A DNA stretch of 64,000 nt from Natranaeroarchaeum aerophilus. Its GTDB lineage: Archaea; Halobacteriota; Halobacteria; Halobacteriales; Natronoarchaeaceae. The stretch covers positions 372,001-436,000 of the forward strand of contig NZ_JAKRVY010000002.1 in NCBI RefSeq assembly GCF_023638055.1, read 5' to 3'. Shown here in pieces: positions 4,301-49,957 of this stretch (its first letter is position 1; each line of letters starts with the position of its first letter). A model generated the notes under the pieces. The model was not told the DNA's origin and did no database searches. It was given only the letters and a program-made list of their open reading frames with translations. A program made the position numbers and the translations under genes.

Positions 4301-5413
4301 TCACCGCATGGTCAGCGCTGCTGACCGATCGGAGAGAGCAACCGCGCCGAGGTAGATCGCAATCGCCACAACGATTACGGAACCACCCGACGGCAGGCTC
4401 TGCCAGATCGCGACACCGATCCCACCGAGAATCGACGCCTGCCCAAACAGCACCGACAGGTACAGCGTTTCCCGGAAGCCGCCGGCGATCTGCGAAGCGG
4501 CAGCGACCGGAATCACCAGTAGACCAGCCACCAGAATGACCCCGAGGATCTGCATCGCTCCGACGACAACGACTGCCGTCATCGTGACCAACAGAGCGTT
4601 GTACCATGCCACGTTGAAGCGCGCGACGCGGGCGGCCTTTTCGTCAAACGTGATGAACAGGAACTGTTTGTAGTTGATCGCAACGAGGGCAGTGACGACG
4701 ACAGTGAGGCTGGCGACGATCTGTGACCCCTGTGCAGTGACAACGGACATGTTCCCGAACAGGAGATCCTCGATCTCGATCGGGACGGAGACGAACTCCC
4801 GGCCCCACGAGATCAGTAGCGTCCCCACCGCGAAACTCCCCGAGAGGACGATGGCGATCGGTACGTCGCCGTAGCTGTCGGTGTGCTGTGTCAGCCACTG
4901 CAGGCCGAGAGCCGCAACGACACTCACGATCAGAGCGACGACCAGCAACTGGCCTCTCGACCCGCCGAGACCGAACAGTCCGACGACCACGACGCCGATA
5001 GCGACACCGGCAAACGCGGTGTGGGCCAGTGTCTCGCCGATCAGCGCCATCTGTCGGTGGACCAGATAGGTTCCGACGAGCGGGCCGACGATCCCGACCA
5101 GGATGCCAGTCGCGATCTGTCGCCACATGAACGGATGCTGAAAGACGTTCGTTCCGAGGTAGTAATCGAGCCACTCGCCGAGGATCAGGAACTGGTCGAA
5201 CGCCGTCCCGGCGAACGTGCCGACAGCTCCCGGTGCAGCCCGGAGCCAGTCGACGGTGATAAAGAGGACCATGCCGGTTCCCAGAAGCGCTGTGAGGACG
5301 AGCAGGACTTCCTCGATGCGTTGTCGGGTCGGCACGCTCCCTGCACGGAGTGACTGTTCAATCGGCTCGTTGGGAGTATCCTCGGTCCGCTCGTCGGCAG
5401 TATCCGTGCTCAT
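4301..5413 (-). CDS. Metal ABC transporter permease (ZnuB/MntB family)
   Basis: This 370-residue membrane protein has multiple hydrophobic segments and the family region GETLAHTAFAGVAIGVVVVG, followed by conserved SYGDVPIAIVLSGSFAVG. It belongs to the ABC-3 permeases that import Zn(II) or Mn(II). A long acidic N-terminus of about 35 residues precedes the first membrane segment. Its start overlaps the end of the ATPase gene by 4 nt (ATGA), and the binding-protein gene lies upstream, making a complete three-gene importer. Zinc is preferred as substrate from genomic context; related Halobacterium systems have been assigned to manganese, so the metal is not settled. Confidence 0.92.
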   Translation of the reverse strand: MSTDTADERTEDTPNEPIEQSLRAGSVPTRQRIEEVLLVLTALLGTGMVLFITVDWLRAAPGAVGTFAGTAFDQFLILGEWLDYYLGTNVFQHPFMWRQIATGILVGIVGPLVGTYLVHRQMALIGETLAHTAFAGVAIGVVVVGLFGLGGSRGQLLVVALIVSVVAALGLQWLTQHTDSYGDVPIAIVLSGSFAVGTLLISWGREFVSVPIEIEDLLFGNMSVVTAQGSQIVASLTVVVTALVAINYKQFLFITFDEKAARVARFNVAWYNALLVTMTAVVVVGAMQILGVILVAGLLVIPVAAASQIAGGFRETLYLSVLFGQASILGGIGVAIWQSLPSGGSVIVVAIAIYLGAVALSDRSAALTMR

Positions 5414-6153
5414 GGGTGGTTGTGATCGAGGACCCCGGTCGATTTACCGTAGGCTTCCGAGAGGGCATCGCTCTCGATGAACGAGACCGTGTCGCCGTGA
5501 TGATACAGCTCCCGATTGATGCAGGCGACCGTGTCGACGTGTTTGGTCAGGACGTCGACGTCGTGCTCGATCAGGATGATGGTAATCCCCTGTTCGTTGA
5601 GGTCATCGAGCAGGTCGTAGAACTCGGTTCGCGAGTCGGCGTCGACACCGACTGTCGGCTCGTCGAGCGCGAGCAGATCGGACTCGGACGCCAGCGCACG
5701 GGCAATGAAGGCACGCTGGCGCTGGCCGCCGGAGACCGCGCTGATCGGGCGGTGTGCGAGGTCGGCGATGTCGACCGTCCGAAGGGCGTCGTCGACTATC
5801 GCGTGGTCCTCGTCGCTCAGCCGCGAGTGGCCAACGTGGGCGAACCGGCCCATCAGCACAACTTCCCGAATTGTCACCGGCATCGCACCGCCGCGGTCGG
5901 TCGAGCGCTGGGCGACGTAGCCGAGGCGTTCGCCCGCCTCGAACTCCGCGGCCGGTTCGTCGAAGAGCCTGATACTCCCACTGTCGGGTTCGGCAAGCCC
6001 GATCATCAGGTGGAGCAGGGTCGTTTTGCCCGAACCGTTCGGGCCGATCATCCCCAGAAAGTCCCCGGCCTCGACTGACAGCGATATGTCTTCGACTGCC
6101 ACCGTATCCCCGTAGGAGAACGTCACGTCCTCCACGTCGACGACCGTTGTCAT
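5410..6153 (-). CDS. Metal ABC transporter ATP-binding protein
   Basis: The 247 residues contain Walker A (GPNGSGKTTLLHL, about 37-49), Q-loop region, the signature VSGGQRQRAFIARALA (about 139-154), Walker B LLALDEPTVGVD and the switch histidine in LIEHDVD. It drives import through the ABC-3 permease encoded downstream. It lies 45 bp downstream of the binding-protein gene and shares an ATGA overlap with the permease gene, so one transcript from the promoter before 7581 probably covers all three. Confidence 0.94.
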   Translation of the reverse strand: MTTVVDVEDVTFSYGDTVAVEDISLSVEAGDFLGMIGPNGSGKTTLLHLMIGLAEPDSGSIRLFDEPAAEFEAGERLGYVAQRSTDRGGAMPVTIREVVLMGRFAHVGHSRLSDEDHAIVDDALRTVDIADLAHRPISAVSGGQRQRAFIARALASESDLLALDEPTVGVDADSRTEFYDLLDDLNEQGITIILIEHDVDVLTKHVDTVACINRELYHHGDTVSFIESDALSEAYGKSTGVLDHNHP

Positions 6154-6198: not shown

Positions 6199-7581
6199 TT
6201 ACGCGCCGAGGGCCGCCCGGAGCGACGGCAGGTTGATCTCTTCCATCTGTTCGACCCAGCCCCAGCCGTTCTCGGACCACTCCGTAGTAGTGCCTTCCGC
6301 CGGAGTCAGGGGCTCTGCGTCCTCGACATCGCTGTTCTCGAAGATCGTCTCGACCATCTGTGGAACCTCCTGGCCGGGGTCCGACACCTCGAACGGATCG
6401 TAGAGTACGGTATCGATGTCCTCTTCCTCGATGAGGTCCAGCAGGTCGGCGATATCCTGCGGCGACACCGAGGCGTCCGGCGAGATTCCAGTCGGCGTCA
6501 CGAGCTCGAAGTCGTACCGTCGTTCGACGTACTGGAACGAGTCGTGTCCGGCGAACACAGCCACGTCCCTGTCCGCGTCCTCGGTTAGCTCCTCGAACTG
6601 CTGATCGACCGTTGCGAGGCGGTCGTTATACGCCGCGGCGTTGTCCTCGTACAGTTCCGCGTTATCGGGATCGAGTTCCCCGAGTTCGTCCGCGATGGTA
6701 TCGACGACGCGCTGGGCGAGCACCGGATCAGCCCAGACGTGCGGGTCCTGAAAGTCGTCCGCACCCTCGTCCTCGTACTCCTCGACGACCTCGAAGGATG
6801 AGGCCTCGTCCGCGGTGTCGTAGATCAGCTCGTCGCCCCGCCAGAGCTCGATGACGACGGCTGTTTGTCCAAGCTCCTCGCCGTGGAACTCGACACGATC
6901 GCCGTGAGATTCGATCCGAACGACTGATTCATCAGTATCGTCGGCGAACCGGGCGTCAAGCTGGTACTGCTCGTCCTCACCGAGTGGCACAACGTAGCCA
7001 TCCTCGTCCTCGATAACGACACCGAAGGGAACGCTCTCGTCGAGTTCGACATCGGGAACACCACCGTGCCAGTGCTCGACGTGCCAGTAGCCGATCCGCC
7101 TGTTCGAGCGGAGGTCGACGATATCGAACTCGTCCAGCTGGAGTGTTTCGGGCGGATACTCCCGTCCGTGATCCGGATCAGGGATCGGGTCATCGTCGAA
7201 GCCGATCAGGAACGGTTCGAGTCCCTGCATCCCGTCGACGACGCGTACATCCTCGTAATCGCGTTCGAGTTCGGCGGCGATATCCTGTGCCCACGAGAAC
7301 TCGGGCGTATCGAGATACAGGAACATGTTCGTCGCCGCGATCTCCCGCGCCAGATCGCCGTCGGGACTCCAGCCGTGGCCCATCGAACCGGTTTCGACCG
7401 GGTTCTCGAAGGAGAGTTCGTCACCGCTAACCTGCTCGGCCCAGTCCCACAGTGCAAAGAAGTTCGCGTACCCCCCTTCACCCTCGTCCCCGCCGAGCGG
7501 GCTATCGAGGCAGCCAGCCAGAGTGCCGAAAGCAGCAGCTCCGGCACCGGCTTTGAGAACGGAGCGTCGTGTCTGTTGCAT
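6199..7581 (-). CDS. Zinc/manganese ABC substrate-binding lipoprotein with large insertion
   Basis: A Tat signal (TRRSVLK) and lipobox LAGC (Cys at about 24) place this protein on the outer face of the membrane. Cluster A-I metal-site signatures are visible: His in GSMGHGWSP, His in DPHVWADP, His in AGHDSFQYVERRY and Asp in YDPFEVSD. At 460 residues it is much longer than the usual 300. Roughly residues 130-265 form an inserted beta-rich domain with WHVEHWHGG and RIESHGDRVEFHGEE, replacing the short His-rich loop common in zinc-specific members. The first His maps before the insertion and the others after it. It heads the importer operon behind the dyad at 7613-7643. Confidence 0.9.
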   Translation of the reverse strand: MQQTRRSVLKAGAGAAAFGTLAGCLDSPLGGDEGEGGYANFFALWDWAEQVSGDELSFENPVETGSMGHGWSPDGDLAREIAATNMFLYLDTPEFSWAQDIAAELERDYEDVRVVDGMQGLEPFLIGFDDDPIPDPDHGREYPPETLQLDEFDIVDLRSNRRIGYWHVEHWHGGVPDVELDESVPFGVVIEDEDGYVVPLGEDEQYQLDARFADDTDESVVRIESHGDRVEFHGEELGQTAVVIELWRGDELIYDTADEASSFEVVEEYEDEGADDFQDPHVWADPVLAQRVVDTIADELGELDPDNAELYEDNAAAYNDRLATVDQQFEELTEDADRDVAVFAGHDSFQYVERRYDFELVTPTGISPDASVSPQDIADLLDLIEEEDIDTVLYDPFEVSDPGQEVPQMVETIFENSDVEDAEPLTPAEGTTTEWSENGWGWVEQMEEINLPSLRAALGA

Positions 7582-7612
7582 ACGCTGTATTTTGTTAGTG
7601 TTGCGTAAAAGG

Positions 7613-7643
7613 ATTGTTATCTGGAAGTGTGTTTTTAATAATC
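7613..7643 (-). promoter_or_regulatory. Putative metal-regulon operator, site A
   Basis: A 31-bp AT-rich imperfect dyad (plus strand ATTGTTAT-N14-TTAATAATC) aligns without gaps to sites at 8567-8597 and 47337-47367. It ends 31 nt before the ATG of the binding-protein gene, immediately upstream of the weak TATA-like CCTTTTACGC. Identity and spacing support a common regulator; which protein binds is unknown. Confidence 0.6.
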
Positions 7644-7656
7644 TCGCTACGGTCGA

Positions 7657-8535
7657 CTACTCCGCGTGCAGCTCGGCGACCGCACGGCCGTGATCGAGTT
7701 CGACGATAGCGTACTCGTCGATGCCTGCACAGTCGTCGACGCCCGCTTCGGCGTGGCCGGCGTGCCCCTCGACGACCTCGACGGAGCCACCGGCAGTGAA
7801 GAAGGCGAAGGTGTCGCCGTCTCCGTGCTCGTGGTCGTGGTCGTCATCGTGATCGTCGTCGTGGTCGTGGTCGTCATCGTGATCGTCGTCGTGGTCGTGG
7901 TCGTCATCGTGATCGTCGTCGTGGTCGTCATCGTGATCGTCGTCGTGGTCGTCATCGTGATCGTCGTCGTGGTCGTCATCATGGTCGTCGTGATCGTCGT
8001 CATCCATCTCGAAGGCAACGTATCCACTCTCACCTTCAACTGTGATGTCGAACGGCTGGTGAGTTTCGGAGACGACCGGTGCGTCTTCCGGTGAATCAGC
8101 AGCTTCGATCTGGTCGCTGTCGTCGTACTGCATATGACCACAGGCGTGATCGATCTCGTCGTGCGAGAGGCCGTCGTGGTCGTGATCGTCGTCGTGGTCG
8201 TGATCGTCGTCGTGATCGTGATCGTCGTCGTGGTCGTGATCGTCGTCGTGGTCGTGATCGTCGTCGTGGTCGTGATCGTCGTCGTGATCGTGATCGTCGT
8301 CGTGGTCGTGATCGTCGTCGTGGTCGTCGTCGTGGTCGTGATCGTCGTCGTGGTCGTCGTCGTGACCGCCCACTCCTTCGACGAGGAACGTCACCGAAGC
8401 TGCGGCCGCTTCACCGTTCGCAGCCTCGCCGTTTTCATCACCGTTCGGGTCGTCGTCGTCGAGACAACCAGCGAACGCGCTTGCAGCCAGTAGTCCACCG
8501 GTACTCGCGAGCAGTCGTCGTCGTGTTTGCTCCAT
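7657..8535 (-). CDS. His/Asp-repeat metal-binding Tat lipoprotein
   Basis: The 292-residue protein has a Tat signal (TRRRLLAS), a lipobox FAGC (Cys 24), and two long low-complexity tracts of HDDD and HD units, one at about residues 58-121 and a second at about 170-240. Between and after them lie a small domain with CGHMQYDD and the C-terminal GHAGHAEAGVDDC region. Such repeats bind many divalent metal ions, so a periplasm-like zinc buffer feeding the neighbouring importer is likely. The ATG at 8533-8535 was chosen because the signal peptide starts there. The coding DNA is a near-tandem repeat of an 18-bp unit and is prone to length change. It lies upstream of the importer operon on the same strand and has its own dyad site. 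Confidence 0.85.
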   Translation of the reverse strand: MEQTRRRLLASTGGLLAASAFAGCLDDDDPNGDENGEAANGEAAAASVTFLVEGVGGHDDDHDDDHDHDDDHDDDHDHDDDHDHDDDHDHDDDHDHDDDHDHDDDHDHDDDHDHDDDHDHDGLSHDEIDHACGHMQYDDSDQIEAADSPEDAPVVSETHQPFDITVEGESGYVAFEMDDDDHDDHDDDHDDDHDDDHDDDHDDDHDDDHDDDHDHDDDHDDDHDHDDDHDDDHDHEHGDGDTFAFFTAGGSVEVVEGHAGHAEAGVDDCAGIDEYAIVELDHGRAVAELHAE

Positions 8536-8566
8536 ACTCCCAGTAACGGTAGTCGTATACAAATAT

Positions 8567-8597
8567 GTTATTATGTAGGTAGAGATTCTTAATAATC
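8567..8597 (-). promoter_or_regulatory. Putative metal-regulon operator, site B
   Basis: The plus strand reads GTTATTAT-N14-TTAATAATC over 31 bp. The last nine bases are identical to site A, and 23 of 31 positions match site C. It ends 31 nt before the ATG of the His/Asp lipoprotein and abuts a TATA-like ATATTTGTATAC at about 8552-8565. The spacing to the start codon equals that at site A. Confidence 0.62.
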
Positions 8598-9114: not shown

Positions 9115-9636
9115 CTACTGGCCGTCGATTTCGATGGAGGCCCCGCCCGCCGGTATCGCAGCAGTGTCGTCGTGAGTCGTCTGGTCGTCCGCGTTCGCAC
9201 TCCGAACTTTCGGCTCCCAGACCGAGTCGATCAGCAGGCGCACGTCGTACTCGACGACCTGTGAGAGGTCGAGCGTGTCGGTGAGGATGCGATGGATTTC
9301 ACACTCGTCGACCGTCGCTCGCGCGACGACGTGGGCGTCCGCGGTCGCGTACACGTGATCGACACTTTCGAGCGGCGCAAGTTGATCGATAACGTCGTGG
9401 ACTGTTCCCGGCCGGAGATGGAGGTCGACGAGAACGCCAACACCCTCACTGATCTGGGAGCGATCGAGGTCCAGCGTGAACCGACCGATGACGCCGAGTT
9501 CTTCGAGGCGTTCGACGCGGTCGGAGACGGTTGGTGGCGACACACCGACCTGCTCGGCGATGTCGTTATACGGCCGCCGGGCGTTTTCGGTCAGTAGCTG
9601 TAGGATATGTAGATCGGTCTCGTCCAGTTCGACCAT
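9115..9636 (-). CDS. Lrp/AsnC family transcriptional regulator
   Basis: The N-terminal winged-helix domain (LDETDLHILQLLTENARRPYN through GVSPPTVSDRVERLEELGVI) is followed by an alpha/beta RAM-like domain (about 65-145) and a polar tail. An ATG 24 nt further upstream (9660) would add eight residues; the internal ATG was chosen because the family normally begins just before the ELDETD motif. No extra metal-binding domain is present. It sits upstream of the cupredoxin gene on the same strand with a 72-bp gap, so it may control that gene or itself. The effector is unknown. Confidence 0.88.
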   Translation of the reverse strand: MVELDETDLHILQLLTENARRPYNDIAEQVGVSPPTVSDRVERLEELGVIGRFTLDLDRSQISEGVGVLVDLHLRPGTVHDVIDQLAPLESVDHVYATADAHVVARATVDECEIHRILTDTLDLSQVVEYDVRLLIDSVWEPKVRSANADDQTTHDDTAAIPAGGASIEIDGQ

Positions 9637-9888
9637 ACCGGTTCTTGTCGGTATCCCCATAAACTACTTTCGACATTGATTTCGTGATTTTTACCGATAA
9701 TCTACTGGCCTCCCGATGAGATCACAGGGATGACGATACAGTACCACGTCCCTGTCACCGCCATCGCGACTAGTAATTCGACACCAGTGATTCGATAGGG
9801 AGACCGGGCTCGTTTCCCGAATCCCCGACTACTATCAGAGTAGTTTTACTTTTCTGTAGCGCGTATCTCCCCAGGCGAGTCCAAACGG

Positions 9889-46022: not shown

Positions 46023-47303
46023 TCAATCAGCAATACCGATCTCTTCGCCACCGTCGGTCGTTTCGTCCGATTCTTCCGTGTCGGTCGCTTCCCCGGTTTC
46101 GGGGGCCTCGAACGTCGGGAAGCGATCCTCGAAGGCGTCCCAGTCGGCCGCCATCTCCTCGTCGCTCAGCACGCTTTGCTCCAGATACGTCCGGAGTGCC
46201 TCGTGATCCATCTCGACGCCGATCAGTACCAGACGGGTGCCACGATCACCCCACTGGTCATCCCACTCGTCTTCGAGGCCGGGATGGGCCTCGAACTGCG
46301 CTTCCTGCTCTTCCGGTGGGAGACTCGCTACCCACCGACCGGCCGGTGCGACCCGGACCGACTGGCCCGCGACGTGGAGCATGATCGCGTTGTCCTCCCG
46401 ACCGGCGAGCCAGAAGTGACCCTTCGAGCGGACGACTTCGTCGGGGAACGAGTCAAGCAGCTCGGCAAACCGTTCGGGGTGGAACGGTCGGTCGGCCTCG
46501 AACACGAAGGAAGTAACGCCGTGTTCTTCCTCCGCGGACTCGTGTGGCTGTTGTAGCTCCTGCATCCAGCCAGCCGAGGCGCGTGCTTCCTCGAAGTCGA
46601 AGCGCTCGGTCTCGACGATGTCGTCGACGTCGACCCGGCCGTGAGTCGTCCGCAGGATCTCGGCGCGGGGCTGGAGGACTTCGAGCGTCGCTTCGATCTC
46701 CTCGAGCGTCGCTTCGTCGACGAGATCGCACTTGTTCAACAGGAGGACGTCACAGAACTCCACCTGTTCGACGAGCAGATCGCCGAGATGTTTCTCGGTG
46801 CCGTCGTCGTCGAGGACCTCGTCGGATTGCATCGCCTCGTGGAACTGGTGGGCGTCGACGACGGTGACCGTCGTATCGAGGTGACAGCCCGACAGCGGCT
46901 CGATACCGGTTTCTTCGTAGAACTCGGTCGGATCGAGATCGGACTGGTCAAAGCCCATCGTCAACGTCTGTGCGACAGGGAGTGGCTCGGCGACGCCGGT
47001 CGACTCGACGACGATGGCGTCGAACTCGCCCGCCTCGGTGAGCCTGTCGACCGCTTCGAGCAGATCGCCGCGAAGCTCACAGCAGATGCAGCCGTCGTCC
47101 AGTTCGACTAGCTCTTCCTCCTCGTCGGAGATGTCCGAGGATTCAGCGACCAGATCCGCATCGACGTTGACCTTGCCCATGTCGTTGACGAGGACCGCTA
47201 GCTCGCGGTCGCCACTCTGTGCAAGGATGTGGTTGAGTGTGGTGGTCTTTCCGGCACCTAGCATACCGGACAGTACCGTCACGGGAGTCGTCTCTTCGCT
47301 CAT
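46023..47303 (-). CDS. COG0523 metallochaperone GTPase (CobW/ZNG1 type)
   Basis: COG0523 GTPases deliver metal, often zinc under limitation, to client enzymes. The 426-residue protein has Walker A GMLGAGKTTTLNHI (13-26), the metal-binding GCICC motif (about 71-75), NKCDLVD as guanine-specificity element and a C-terminal CobW domain with FAELLDSFPDEVVRSKGHFWLAG. An acidic tail follows. The dyad site C and a TATA box at 47328-47338 precede it and are shared with the divergent FAD gene. Confidence 0.93.
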   Translation of the reverse strand: MSEETTPVTVLSGMLGAGKTTTLNHILAQSGDRELAVLVNDMGKVNVDADLVAESSDISDEEEELVELDDGCICCELRGDLLEAVDRLTEAGEFDAIVVESTGVAEPLPVAQTLTMGFDQSDLDPTEFYEETGIEPLSGCHLDTTVTVVDAHQFHEAMQSDEVLDDDGTEKHLGDLLVEQVEFCDVLLLNKCDLVDEATLEEIEATLEVLQPRAEILRTTHGRVDVDDIVETERFDFEEARASAGWMQELQQPHESAEEEHGVTSFVFEADRPFHPERFAELLDSFPDEVVRSKGHFWLAGREDNAIMLHVAGQSVRVAPAGRWVASLPPEEQEAQFEAHPGLEDEWDDQWGDRGTRLVLIGVEMDHEALRTYLEQSVLSDEEMAADWDAFEDRFPTFEAPETGEATDTEESDETTDGGEEIGIAD

Positions 47304-47336
47304 TCATTAACAACCTATGGCTTGGTCATAATATAA

Positions 47337-47367
47337 GTTATTATCTAAGTCACAGTTCTTATTAATC
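47337..47367. promoter_or_regulatory. Putative metal-regulon operator, site C (divergent)
   Basis: GTTATTAT-N14-TTATTAATC spans 31 bp, and 23 positions match site B. It lies 33 nt from the COG0523 ATG and 31 nt from the GTG of the divergent FAD gene, nearly midway between them, so a single site could control both directions. Confidence 0.62.
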
Positions 47368-47398: not shown

Positions 47399-48640
47399 GT
47401 GAGCAACGACACACACAGTCCAGAGCGGTTCGGGTGTGCTATCATCGGTGGCGGGATCCACGGGACGTATCTCGCGAACCGGCTAGTAGAGGACACCCAG
47501 TTTGGCCCAGCGGATATCGCCATCTTCGACCCACACGAGCAACTGCTGGAATCGTTCCGTCGGAAGGCCCAGCGGTGCGGGATGGAGACACTCAGATCTA
47601 CGTTCGTCCACCACGTCGGGGCGGAGGCGTTCGGCCTCGAACGGTTCGCAGACGAATACGATCGCAGGGACGAACTCGTCTCGACGATCGATTACCCGGC
47701 CCGGCCCTCGCTGTCCCTGTTTCTGGACTACGCCGACGAGATTATCGCGACCAGCGGTCTCGATAGCTGCCATCGCCGGACACACGTCGAGGCGATCCGC
47801 CCGACAGACAGGGATCGTCTCGCACTGGAGACGGTGGAGGGACGCGCGATCGCCGACACCTGCGTCCTCGCGATGGGACACGGAGGTCGCCACACCCGGC
47901 CGGACTGGGCACAGGGAATCGACGACGTGGTCCACGTCTGGGGCGAGTTTGATCCCGCGAGAACCGTCGACCGGACGCTGATCGTCGGTGGCGGGATCAC
48001 TGCCGGCCAGCTCGCCTGCACGCTGAGCGAGTCGGAAACGGTCGGGCTGGTCAGCCGACACCCGCTCGACTGGGAGGTCTCGGAAGCCGCGCCGCCGTGG
48101 ATCAACTGGTCACGAATCGAATCGGAGCTGCACACGCATCCGCCGGGATCGAAAGCGCGACTGGAGGTAGCGAGGGACGCGCGCAACGACGCGTCGATGC
48201 CGCCGTACCTGTACGCGGAACTGGACGAGCGGATCGACGAGGGTGCGCTGGTCATCGAGAGCGGCGACATCGAGACGGTTGAACGTCAAGACGACGGGAT
48301 TGCGCTGTCGATCCGCCACGTCAGGGACCTAGTCGGCGACCGGGTAGTCCTCGCGACAGGCTTCGAGCCGGTGTTCGAGCATCCGTTCGTCGACCGGGTC
48401 GCCCAGGAGTGCTCGCTCGCACGCGGATACGACGGAATGCCACTCCTCGATGACGAGACGCTCGCGTGGCGACACGATCAGGGGCAGCTATCGAACCTGT
48501 TCGTCACCGGCGCGCTGGCCCTCGGTACTGTCGGTCCCTATGCACCAAACATCCCGGGCGCACGGCGGGCGGCAGACCGGATCGTTCCGTCGATAGCGAC
48601 CCAGCTAGAGCGTGCTGACCTCGCAGCGATGGGGCCCTGA
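47399..48640 (+). CDS. FAD/NAD(P)-binding oxidoreductase, paralogue 1
   Basis: The 413-residue protein has an FAD Rossmann motif IIGGGIHGTYLANRL at the N-terminus and a second dinucleotide motif LIVGGGITAGQLA near residue 200. The GYDGMPLLDDETLAWR region matches the neighbouring paralogue. It resembles uncharacterised FAD proteins distantly like ornithine/lysine N-hydroxylases, so a role in metallophore chemistry is one possibility. No reaction can be assigned. It starts with GTG and faces the COG0523 gene across site C. Confidence 0.86.
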   Translation: MSNDTHSPERFGCAIIGGGIHGTYLANRLVEDTQFGPADIAIFDPHEQLLESFRRKAQRCGMETLRSTFVHHVGAEAFGLERFADEYDRRDELVSTIDYPARPSLSLFLDYADEIIATSGLDSCHRRTHVEAIRPTDRDRLALETVEGRAIADTCVLAMGHGGRHTRPDWAQGIDDVVHVWGEFDPARTVDRTLIVGGGITAGQLACTLSESETVGLVSRHPLDWEVSEAAPPWINWSRIESELHTHPPGSKARLEVARDARNDASMPPYLYAELDERIDEGALVIESGDIETVERQDDGIALSIRHVRDLVGDRVVLATGFEPVFEHPFVDRVAQECSLARGYDGMPLLDDETLAWRHDQGQLSNLFVTGALALGTVGPYAPNIPGARRAADRIVPSIATQLERADLAAMGP

Positions 48641-48659: not shown

Positions 48660-49922
48660 CTACGCTGGCACCATTGCTTCCTTCTGGGCGGTCAGGTGGT
48701 CGACGATCAGGTCACCCGCCCGTCGCGCGCCGATCACGTTGCGAGCGAATGGGCCAAGCACCTGCTCCGTGGCGGCTCCGGAGACGAGTACCCGCGAGGG
48801 GCTCCCGTCCTCGCATCGCCAGCACAGCGTCTCGTCGTCGAGAACCGGTGCGCCGCGATAACCAGACGCCAGTGACGTCTCACGGAACGAGCGGAACAGG
48901 CTGGCACTGTAGGGATTCCCAAAGCCAGTTGAACAGATCATCCGGTCGAGACACACCGCAGTCCCGTCCTCGCAGGTGACGACGACGGTCCCGCCCGCCT
49001 CGTTGGCGACCGTAATCTCCGATCGTTCGAGGGATATGCCGTCCCCCTGCAATGTCTCGCGCAATCGGTCGAAGGCGTATGGCGGGATCGCGCCGTCGTT
49101 TCGCGCCTGCTCGACGCGCTGCTGGCGTTCCTGCGAGGCGGGAGGCAGATCGTGGAGTTCCTCCACGACGCTGGAAAAATGCATCCACTCGGTGCCCGCC
49201 TCTAGCGACTCGACGCGGAACGGACTGCGCGCGAACAGCGTCACGGTTCTGGACGGACGCGCAATTGTCACTGCTAACTGTGCAGCCGTGATGCCACCGC
49301 CAACGATGCCGACGTGTTCGGTCTCGCCGATCACTTCCCGGTCGAACGACGGATCCCAGACGTGTGTGACCGGGGCGTCCTCCGGAAGCGTGCCAGCCCA
49401 CTCGGGGAGCGACGTCGCGCCGCCGTAGCCGGTCGCCAGGAGACACCAGTCGGATTCGATCCGCCCCGTGGTCGTCTCCACGGCAACCCCCGTGCGCTGC
49501 TCTCTGATCCCGGTTGCCCTGCCCTCGACGATGGACGAATCCAGATCGTACCGGTCGACGACCCACGCCGCGTGATCGAAAAAGAGGTCGGTCGTCGGCC
49601 GGTCACCGCCAACCCTGCTCGGATGCAGTTCGTCGTCACGCCCCCGCCCGCGTGCGAAATCACGCAGCGAAAACGGATCGCGAGCCACGTGGTGGACAAA
49701 GGGTGACCTGAGCGTCTCGACGCCACACTGCCGACACTTCCGACGAAACCCGCCGAGCAATCCGTCGGGTTCGACGATTCGCAGGTCCTCGTGCTCGACG
49801 ACATTCGCGTCGAGCAGCCGGATCGCGAGGTGGACGCCGTGGACGCCGCCGCCGATGATCGTCACGCGTGGACTGCTCCGTACGTCCGATCGATTGCTCC
49901 CTTGCATCGGTCGCTCGGTCAT
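48660..49922 (-). CDS. FAD/NAD(P)-binding oxidoreductase, paralogue 2
   Basis: The 420-residue protein shares the layout and many signatures of the convergent paralogue: TIIGGGVHGVHLAIRL, RQCGVETLRSPFVHHV, VGGGITAAQLA, ARNDGAIPPYAF and GYRGAPVLDDETLCWR. The pair share the tail PF/YAxNxxGARRA. The ATG at 49922 lies just after site D; an internal ATG at 49907 is also possible. The two paralogues are tail-to-tail with a 19-bp gap, most likely an inverted duplication. The reaction is unknown. Confidence 0.86.
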   Translation of the reverse strand: MTERPMQGSNRSDVRSSPRVTIIGGGVHGVHLAIRLLDANVVEHEDLRIVEPDGLLGGFRRKCRQCGVETLRSPFVHHVARDPFSLRDFARGRGRDDELHPSRVGGDRPTTDLFFDHAAWVVDRYDLDSSIVEGRATGIREQRTGVAVETTTGRIESDWCLLATGYGGATSLPEWAGTLPEDAPVTHVWDPSFDREVIGETEHVGIVGGGITAAQLAVTIARPSRTVTLFARSPFRVESLEAGTEWMHFSSVVEELHDLPPASQERQQRVEQARNDGAIPPYAFDRLRETLQGDGISLERSEITVANEAGGTVVVTCEDGTAVCLDRMICSTGFGNPYSASLFRSFRETSLASGYRGAPVLDDETLCWRCEDGSPSRVLVSGAATEQVLGPFARNVIGARRAGDLIVDHLTAQKEAMVPA

Positions 49923-49926
49923 CTCC

Positions 49927-49957
49927 TGTTAATAAAATGTTCGAGTATATTAATAAC
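49927..49957. promoter_or_regulatory. Putative metal-regulon operator, site D
   Basis: On the minus strand this reads GTTATTAA-N14-TTATTAACA, the same two half-sites and 31-bp span as sites A-C but less conserved inside. It overlaps the TATA-like TTAATATA of paralogue 2, whose ATG follows by 4 bp. It is the weakest of the four matches. Confidence 0.48.

Follow-up and report, generated by a model that had tools for sequence, protein, structure and literature searches.

The question raised by this locus is whether two similar AT-rich dyads, in front of a metal importer and a His/Asp-rich lipoprotein, are operators of one metal-responsive regulator, and which metal and which protein would then be involved. 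The window (the whole 64-kb stretch of DNA that was analysed) had received a preliminary description in which sites A (7613-7643) and B (8567-8597) formed a 31-bp motif with identical last nine bases, ending 31 nt before each start codon, just upstream of a TATA-like element, with further copies at 47337-47367 and 49927-49957. Direct reading confirmed A and B in sequence, position and spacing: the last nine bases are the same (TTAATAATC), 31 nt separate the gene-proximal edge from the ATG at both (znuA, 7579-7581; lipoprotein, 8533-8535), and TATA-like elements are present at 7606..7610 and 8558..8566. The length of the motif held only in part. Comparison with relatives gave a conserved core of 30 bp, GTTATTAA-N14-ATAATAAC, located at 7613-7642 in A, 8567-8596 in B and 47337-47366 in C, and the 31st base was without conservation among relatives. 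The third copy (C) was upheld as a site, as was the fourth (D), with its register corrected by one base to 49928-49957, where it reads GTTAATAA-N14-TTAATAAC. Pairwise identity over 31 positions was 19/31 for A and B, 19/31 for A and C, and 23/31 for B and C. The putative operators and the neighbouring TATA-like elements, the latter read from the sequence, are:

7613..7642, minus strand: operator A, ATTATTAA-N14-ATAACAAT, 31 nt before the znuA ATG; matrix score 21.8
7606..7610, minus strand: TATA-like element TTTTA, directly downstream of A
8567..8596, minus strand: operator B, ATTATTAA-N14-ATAATAAC, 31 nt before the ATG of the His/Asp lipoprotein; matrix score 26.3
8558..8566, minus strand: TATA-like element ATATTTGTA, directly downstream of B
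47337..47366, minus strand: operator C, ATTAATAA-N14-ATAATAAC; matrix score 26.4
47327..47336, minus strand: TATA-like element TTATATTATG, directly downstream of C
49928..49957, no strand assigned: operator D, 5 nt before the ATG at 49922; matrix score 22.5

Site C lies 33 nt from the ATG of a COG0523 gene and 32 nt from the GTG of a divergent FAD gene. If the znuA transcript is leaderless, the TTTTA element beside A could sit at about -27. The genes associated with the four sites are:

6199..7581, minus strand: znuA, zinc-type substrate-binding lipoprotein (Pfam ZnuA, E=1e-43; tree placement)
5410..6153, minus strand: znuC, ATPase (Pfam ABC_tran)
4301..5413, minus strand: znuB, permease (Pfam ABC-3)
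7657..8535, minus strand: His/Asp-repeat lipoprotein, consisting mostly of His/Asp repeats; similar proteins with their own site occur near znuA elsewhere
46023..47303, minus strand: COG0523 (CobW) GTPase of the zinc metallochaperone type (Pfam cobW/CobW_C)
47399..48640, plus strand: FAD/NAD(P)-binding protein 1 (Pfam NAD_binding_9)
48660..49922, minus strand: FAD/NAD(P)-binding protein 2 (Pfam NAD_binding_9)

The lipoprotein had no match in Pfam or NCBIfam, and a role as zinc-binding partner or store remains a possibility. The best NCBIfam match of the COG0523 GTPase was ZigA, at 414 bits and under the cut-off of 600; an orthologous site (score 27.8) lies upstream of the COG0523 gene in another genome, G041. 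In two relatives, Halorubrum tebenquichense and G055, znuB is followed by a homologue of FAD/NAD(P)-binding protein 1, and in G041 a homologue of FAD/NAD(P)-binding protein 2 adjoins COG0523, with a weaker site (15.8) overlapping near its annotated start. Both FAD/NAD(P)-binding proteins are likely members of the regulon.

The matrix was trained on 31 sites from other genomes only, one of which was the orthologue of B in the sister species (G001) and none of which came from the genome analysed here (G000). Sites C, B, D and A were the four best matches in the window, and no position outside them exceeded 9. In 2 Mb of simulated sequence with the dinucleotide composition of the window, searched on both strands, the top score was 8.6. 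Whole-genome scans were performed with patterns rather than with the matrix. B, C and A were the three best matches to GATTATTAA-N14-ATAATAAC in the whole 3.29-Mb genome, the perfect score of B being given by construction since the pattern was derived from B and C. A broader pattern with zero mismatches occurred at seven places in the genome, namely A-D, one uS14 paralogue and two intracoding positions, C2:216012 and C3:185747, which were not counted as targets because both lie inside coding sequence. A reversed-pattern control gave 2 matches at no more than one mismatch in the whole genome. The four sites are real and all four stand at metal-linked genes.

The preliminary description had cautioned that promoters of this AT content may resemble one another by chance. 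In favour of chance are the AT-rich nature of the motif and the roughly 45 control matches obtained at two mismatches over 59 genomes; against it stand the fixed spacing, the retention of the arms while the spacer drifts, the clade-specific presence described below, and the metal linkage of all of the top four matches in the window. Coincidental similarity can be all but discounted.

Conservation of the dyad was assessed with a tree of 72 ZnuA-like proteins, a site being called at a matrix score of at least 14 within 120 nt upstream. The dyad precedes znuA orthologues in many haloarchaeal families. Outside one clade of sister transporters, 37/50 znuA-like genes reached this score, against 0/22 inside it; the chance of such a score was about 0.001 per upstream region in simulations with the same AT-rich composition. 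The znuA of G000 groups with the site-bearing ZnuAs. Several of the 13 site-less genes outside the sister clade lie behind a site-bearing His/Asp gene, and one has a site further upstream; the other exceptions include duplicate or mis-started reading frames and members of a znuA2 group linked to NikR1 (see below). The position of the dyad is also conserved, with the site ending either 30-31 or 2-6 nt before the ATG in 29 of the 37 site-bearing genes. The first class includes Natrinema, Haloterrigena, Halorubrum, Halohasta and others, and the second Halobium, Haladaptatus, Halomarina, Halobaculum, Halobellus and Halovenus. Site D, at 5 nt, fits this second class. Between G000 and G001, 15/16 bases of the arms of site B are kept and only 6/14 of its spacer. 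A and C with most of their flanks, together with D itself, are identical in the two species, so that comparison of these three sites says little. Repeat-rich relatives of the lipoprotein at 7657-8535 were also observed to adjoin znuA in many haloarchaea. His/Asp-rich proteins also occur with their own site, three of these ORFs standing in a row in G052.

In both position classes the dyad would border or overlap the TATA region of a leaderless promoter. This favours repression as the mode of control, a direction that is inferred; activation from upstream of the TATA box remains conceivable. That the genes form a shared regulon under one metal-responsive regulator is well supported, although the control itself has not been measured.

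The sister clade consists of L072 and 21 other loci (most of L181-L199, L203, L206, L213, L218), and a matrix scan of upstream regions found the 30-bp dyad missing from all 22 of these ZnuA-like transporters. Many of their promoters carry a DtxR/MntR-like palindrome, TTAGAY..RTCTAA, and this clade is probably under manganese control. Manganese was rejected as the signal for the 30-bp dyad, the sister transporter clade having its own palindrome. A related alternative is that a zinc repressor of the DtxR/MntR family binds the dyad, as was predicted for ZntR at the znuABC genes of Methanosarcina. In its favour, archaea are said to lack Zur in the survey that discusses ZntR (PMC2770081), and G000 encodes two DtxR-family proteins. 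DtxR-type sites are generally shorter palindromes than a 30-bp dyad, however, many sister-clade promoters carry TTAGAY..RTCTAA and none the dyad, and neither DtxR gene match lies on the contig with A-D. This alternative is considered unlikely.

Evidence on the signal came from the uS14 paralogue, a protein of 54 aa (Pfam Ribosomal_S14) encoded elsewhere in G000 with a site 33 nt before its ATG. The same arrangement, at the same distance, is found in G001. The paralogue lacks the second Cys of each CxxC pair (CRAT, CRQS), so that two of four zinc-ribbon cysteines are lost, whereas canonical uS14 retained CxRC and CRQC in every copy read. Loss of zinc binding is inferred from these missing cysteines. 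In G041 a paralogue-type uS14 lies downstream of the site-bearing COG0523 gene; in G017 one lacks a strong site and has a NikR4 gene nearby. Zinc-free ribosomal paralogues controlled by Zur are known in bacteria (PMC2770081), and because they typify bacterial Zur regulons zinc is the probable signal here. Two functional traits of a Zur-type regulon are present: the operator stands at fixed spacing before znuABC and COG0523, and also before a ribosomal paralogue that has lost zinc ligands. Zinc was likewise favoured over manganese, the two signals left open by the preliminary description, because of the uS14 paralogue and the ZigA-like COG0523 target and because the paralogous transporter clade has the DtxR-like palindrome. 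Zinc is thus the likely signal, as inferred from the targets in the absence of metal data.

The regulator itself was sought among several families. No PF01475 (Fur family) match was present in G000, and most other haloarchaea gave weak matches only; the two DtxR-family proteins of G000 are both encoded off the A-D contig. Another possibility is that the AsnC/Lrp protein encoded within the window at 9115-9639 binds the dyad, and two members of the same family, G003 and G005, indeed share the order AsnC-cupredoxin-site-znuA. No AsnC gene was found near site-bearing znuA in the other families examined, though, and a 6-16-6 dyad is unusual for Lrp. AsnC was set aside as the dyad occurs without its gene, and is very unlikely to be the regulator.

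Read as TTATTA-N16-TAATAA, the consensus of the 31 training sites, the dyad covers 28 bp, with a 6-bp half-site on either side of a 16-bp gap. This geometry equals that of the E. coli NikR operator, GTATGA-N16-TCATAC (6-16-6; PMC7055735), and delta-proteobacterial NikR sites are repeats of 27-28 bp (PMC545781). Four NikR_C proteins over the NikR_C cut-off are encoded in G000, of types designated NikR1 to NikR4. In the tree of NikR proteins, NikR2 and NikR3 form one group and the nickel-associated NikR1 and NikR4 the other, separated with 99% SH-aLRT support; some branches are long. The NikR2/3 clade is almost universal among haloarchaea. The candidate regulator consists of an N-terminal ribbon-helix-helix and NikR_C, and phmmer aligned both domains to 2bj1 (E=1e-16) and 1q5v (E=6e-16). 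Its His, His-x-His and Cys metal ligands are invariant in 29 NikR2 sequences, and 38/38 NikR2/3 proteins have R-H at the first ligand, in contrast to the Q-H of NikR1/4 and of the solved NikRs. NikR1 scored above several of the NCBIfam NikR cut-offs, and NikR2 and NikR3 above none. NikR2/3 are therefore members of the NikR family that NCBIfam does not class as nickel NikR.

The gene neighbourhoods of the four types differ. NikR1 of G000 neighbours urease and znuA2, and TGTATTA-N16-TAATACA lies in the intervening DNA. Relatives of NikR4 and genes for NicO-like transporters form divergent pairs, and several genomes have NikR3 opposite COG0523 (two COG0523 genes are divergent from NikR3). NikR2 adjoins znuACB in G029, G050 and G034 and is unlinked to znu in most genomes; its identity among the relatives sampled is mostly 74-88%. 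NikR2 is preferred over NikR3 as the binder of A-D because it occurs where NikR3 does not. Zinc fails to activate the NikR of E. coli or of H. pylori properly (PMC3087415; PMC7949043), and a change of specificity must consequently be assumed.

It could be argued that this is instead a nickel or cobalt regulon, with NikR2 an ordinary nickel sensor and the transporter a nickel importer. In support, the His, HxH and Cys ligands are kept in NikR2/3, a few NikR3 with HxC excepted, and elsewhere in G000 the urease genes have as neighbour a ZnuA-type transporter with a NikR-like site. Against this reading, zinc is indicated by the ZigA-like chaperone and by the uS14 paralogue that lost zinc ligands; the near universality of NikR_C genes (43/43 good genomes) is not shared by urease (strong matches in 14/59 genomes); NicO and urease have a separate NikR pair; and the residue before the first ligand has changed from Q to R. 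A nickel or cobalt regulon is accordingly regarded as improbable. It could further be proposed that some other, unidentified regulator binds the dyad and that the NikR geometry is coincidental, given that the regulator has no biochemical demonstration and that most genomes have NikR2 away from znu. NikR nevertheless agrees with the spacing, the register of the half-sites, the split between clades and the gene linkage, and such a coincidence is very unlikely.

The preferred reading is that a member of the haloarchaeal NikR2/NikR3 clade acts at the dyad as a zinc-responsive repressor. This is judged likely, with protein, metal and direction all inferred from sequence and no binding data available; what the data show directly is a conserved dyad at fixed positions and the genes that it precedes. 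Weighing against the reading are the nickel ligands retained by NikR2/3, the distance of NikR2 from znu in most genomes, and the weaker dyad variants at the NikR2 and NikR3 promoters, which leave autoregulation doubtful. The dyad would then be the operator of a zinc-limitation regulon, bound by a NikR2/NikR3-clade protein encoded elsewhere in the genome as the counterpart of Zur. A zinc-bound ribbon-helix-helix tetramer is predicted to grip the TTATTA/TAATAA half-sites 16 bp apart and to sit directly against the TATA box on its upstream side, or over the core promoter, where it would block initiation of transcription. As zinc falls the tetramer would be released, and ZnuACB, the His/Asp lipoproteins, the ZigA-like COG0523 protein, the FAD proteins and the cysteine-reduced uS14 would be made. 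A bolder version, held to be more likely than not, is that in haloarchaea Zur was replaced by a zinc-sensing branch of the nickel regulator NikR through duplication, the Q-to-R change and a shifted half-site, and that this branch runs a zinc-sparing programme including the uS14 swap. The claim in the preliminary description of one metal-responsive regulator with a candidate regulon is well supported, in the absence of binding, expression or metal data, and the scatter of matrix matches over unrelated promoters that would have refuted it was not seen; its caveat about chance is countered by the spacing, arm conservation and clade-specific presence. The regulator candidate, the uS14 target, the exact 30-bp core and the register of D go beyond it.

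The proposed system resembles a bacterial Zur regulon in its targets (znuABC, a COG0523 chaperone, a zinc-free ribosomal paralogue) and presumably in repression when zinc is replete, but no Fur-family protein was found in G000, the operator is a widely spaced 30-bp dyad rather than a compact Zur box, and the uS14 is of the archaeal type. With NikR of E. coli, delta-proteobacteria and Pyrococcus it shares the ribbon-helix-helix and NikR_C domains, half-sites 16 bp apart and the kept ligands. It differs from nickel NikR in its zinc-gene targets, its half-site (TTATTA versus GTATGA), the replacement of Q by R just ahead of the first ligand His and its scores below the NCBIfam cut-offs. Like the predicted DtxR/MntR-like ZntR of Methanosarcina, it is an archaeal regulator of znuABC and COG0523, yet the protein family is another and DtxR-type sites here stand at a different transporter clade. 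A NikR homologue beside znuABC in Methanothermobacter was suggested from gene order to be zinc-responsive (PMC3087415); that case concerns a different archaeal group, and the passages bearing on it contain no operator, regulon, clade or ribosomal target. In Haloferax volcanii an sRNA has been described to act on znu mRNA (PMC8155600). This operator, a link between NikR and zinc in haloarchaea, a haloarchaeal zinc-type NikR clade and a zinc-controlled archaeal uS14 paralogue were not reported in the literature searched, which left most subscription papers uncovered. For the control of zinc uptake in haloarchaea the analysis provides an operator with a list of targets and a candidate for the regulator. 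If the reading is true, a metalloregulator family defined by nickel has switched metal and taken the job of Zur, nickel-type and zinc-type NikR paralogues in one cell become available for studying the evolution of metal specificity, and zinc sparing by the ribosome extends to archaea through a uS14 paralogue.

Several minor observations were made at related loci. Three NikR3-type proteins have HxC in place of HxH (L079 4861-5271, L080 7356-7802, L095 525-971), so that their ligands become His2Cys2, a combination that would suit zinc. At the promoters of NikR2 and NikR3 only weaker dyad variants occur. The NikR2 promoters (L068, L090-L114) have in common CTTAATA (TATA) and GTTAATAC or ATTATTAC directly before the ATG, an element that is possibly an autoregulatory site. 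The NikR4/NicO-like loci are L155, L157, L158, L159, L163 and L164, the NicO match being weak in Pfam for the two tested; an inverted-repeat scan found no clear NikR-like dyad in the NikR4-NicO spacer, and a GGTTGTTAMTACC...TCGTCATA element is common to most of these spacers. The second ZnuA/ZnuB pair of G000 lies between the urease genes and the canonical NikR (C2:454000-461500, L071) and might import nickel for urease. A dyad-like match within a membrane histidine-kinase-like coding region occurs in both G000 (C2:216012, L247) and G001 (C1:782412, L146), with a ZIP transporter gene upstream of the latter. Finally, in G016 (L079 8020-9081) an NMT1-like ABC substrate-binding protein is encoded by an ORF that lies beside zinc genes and starts 3 nt after a perfect dyad.
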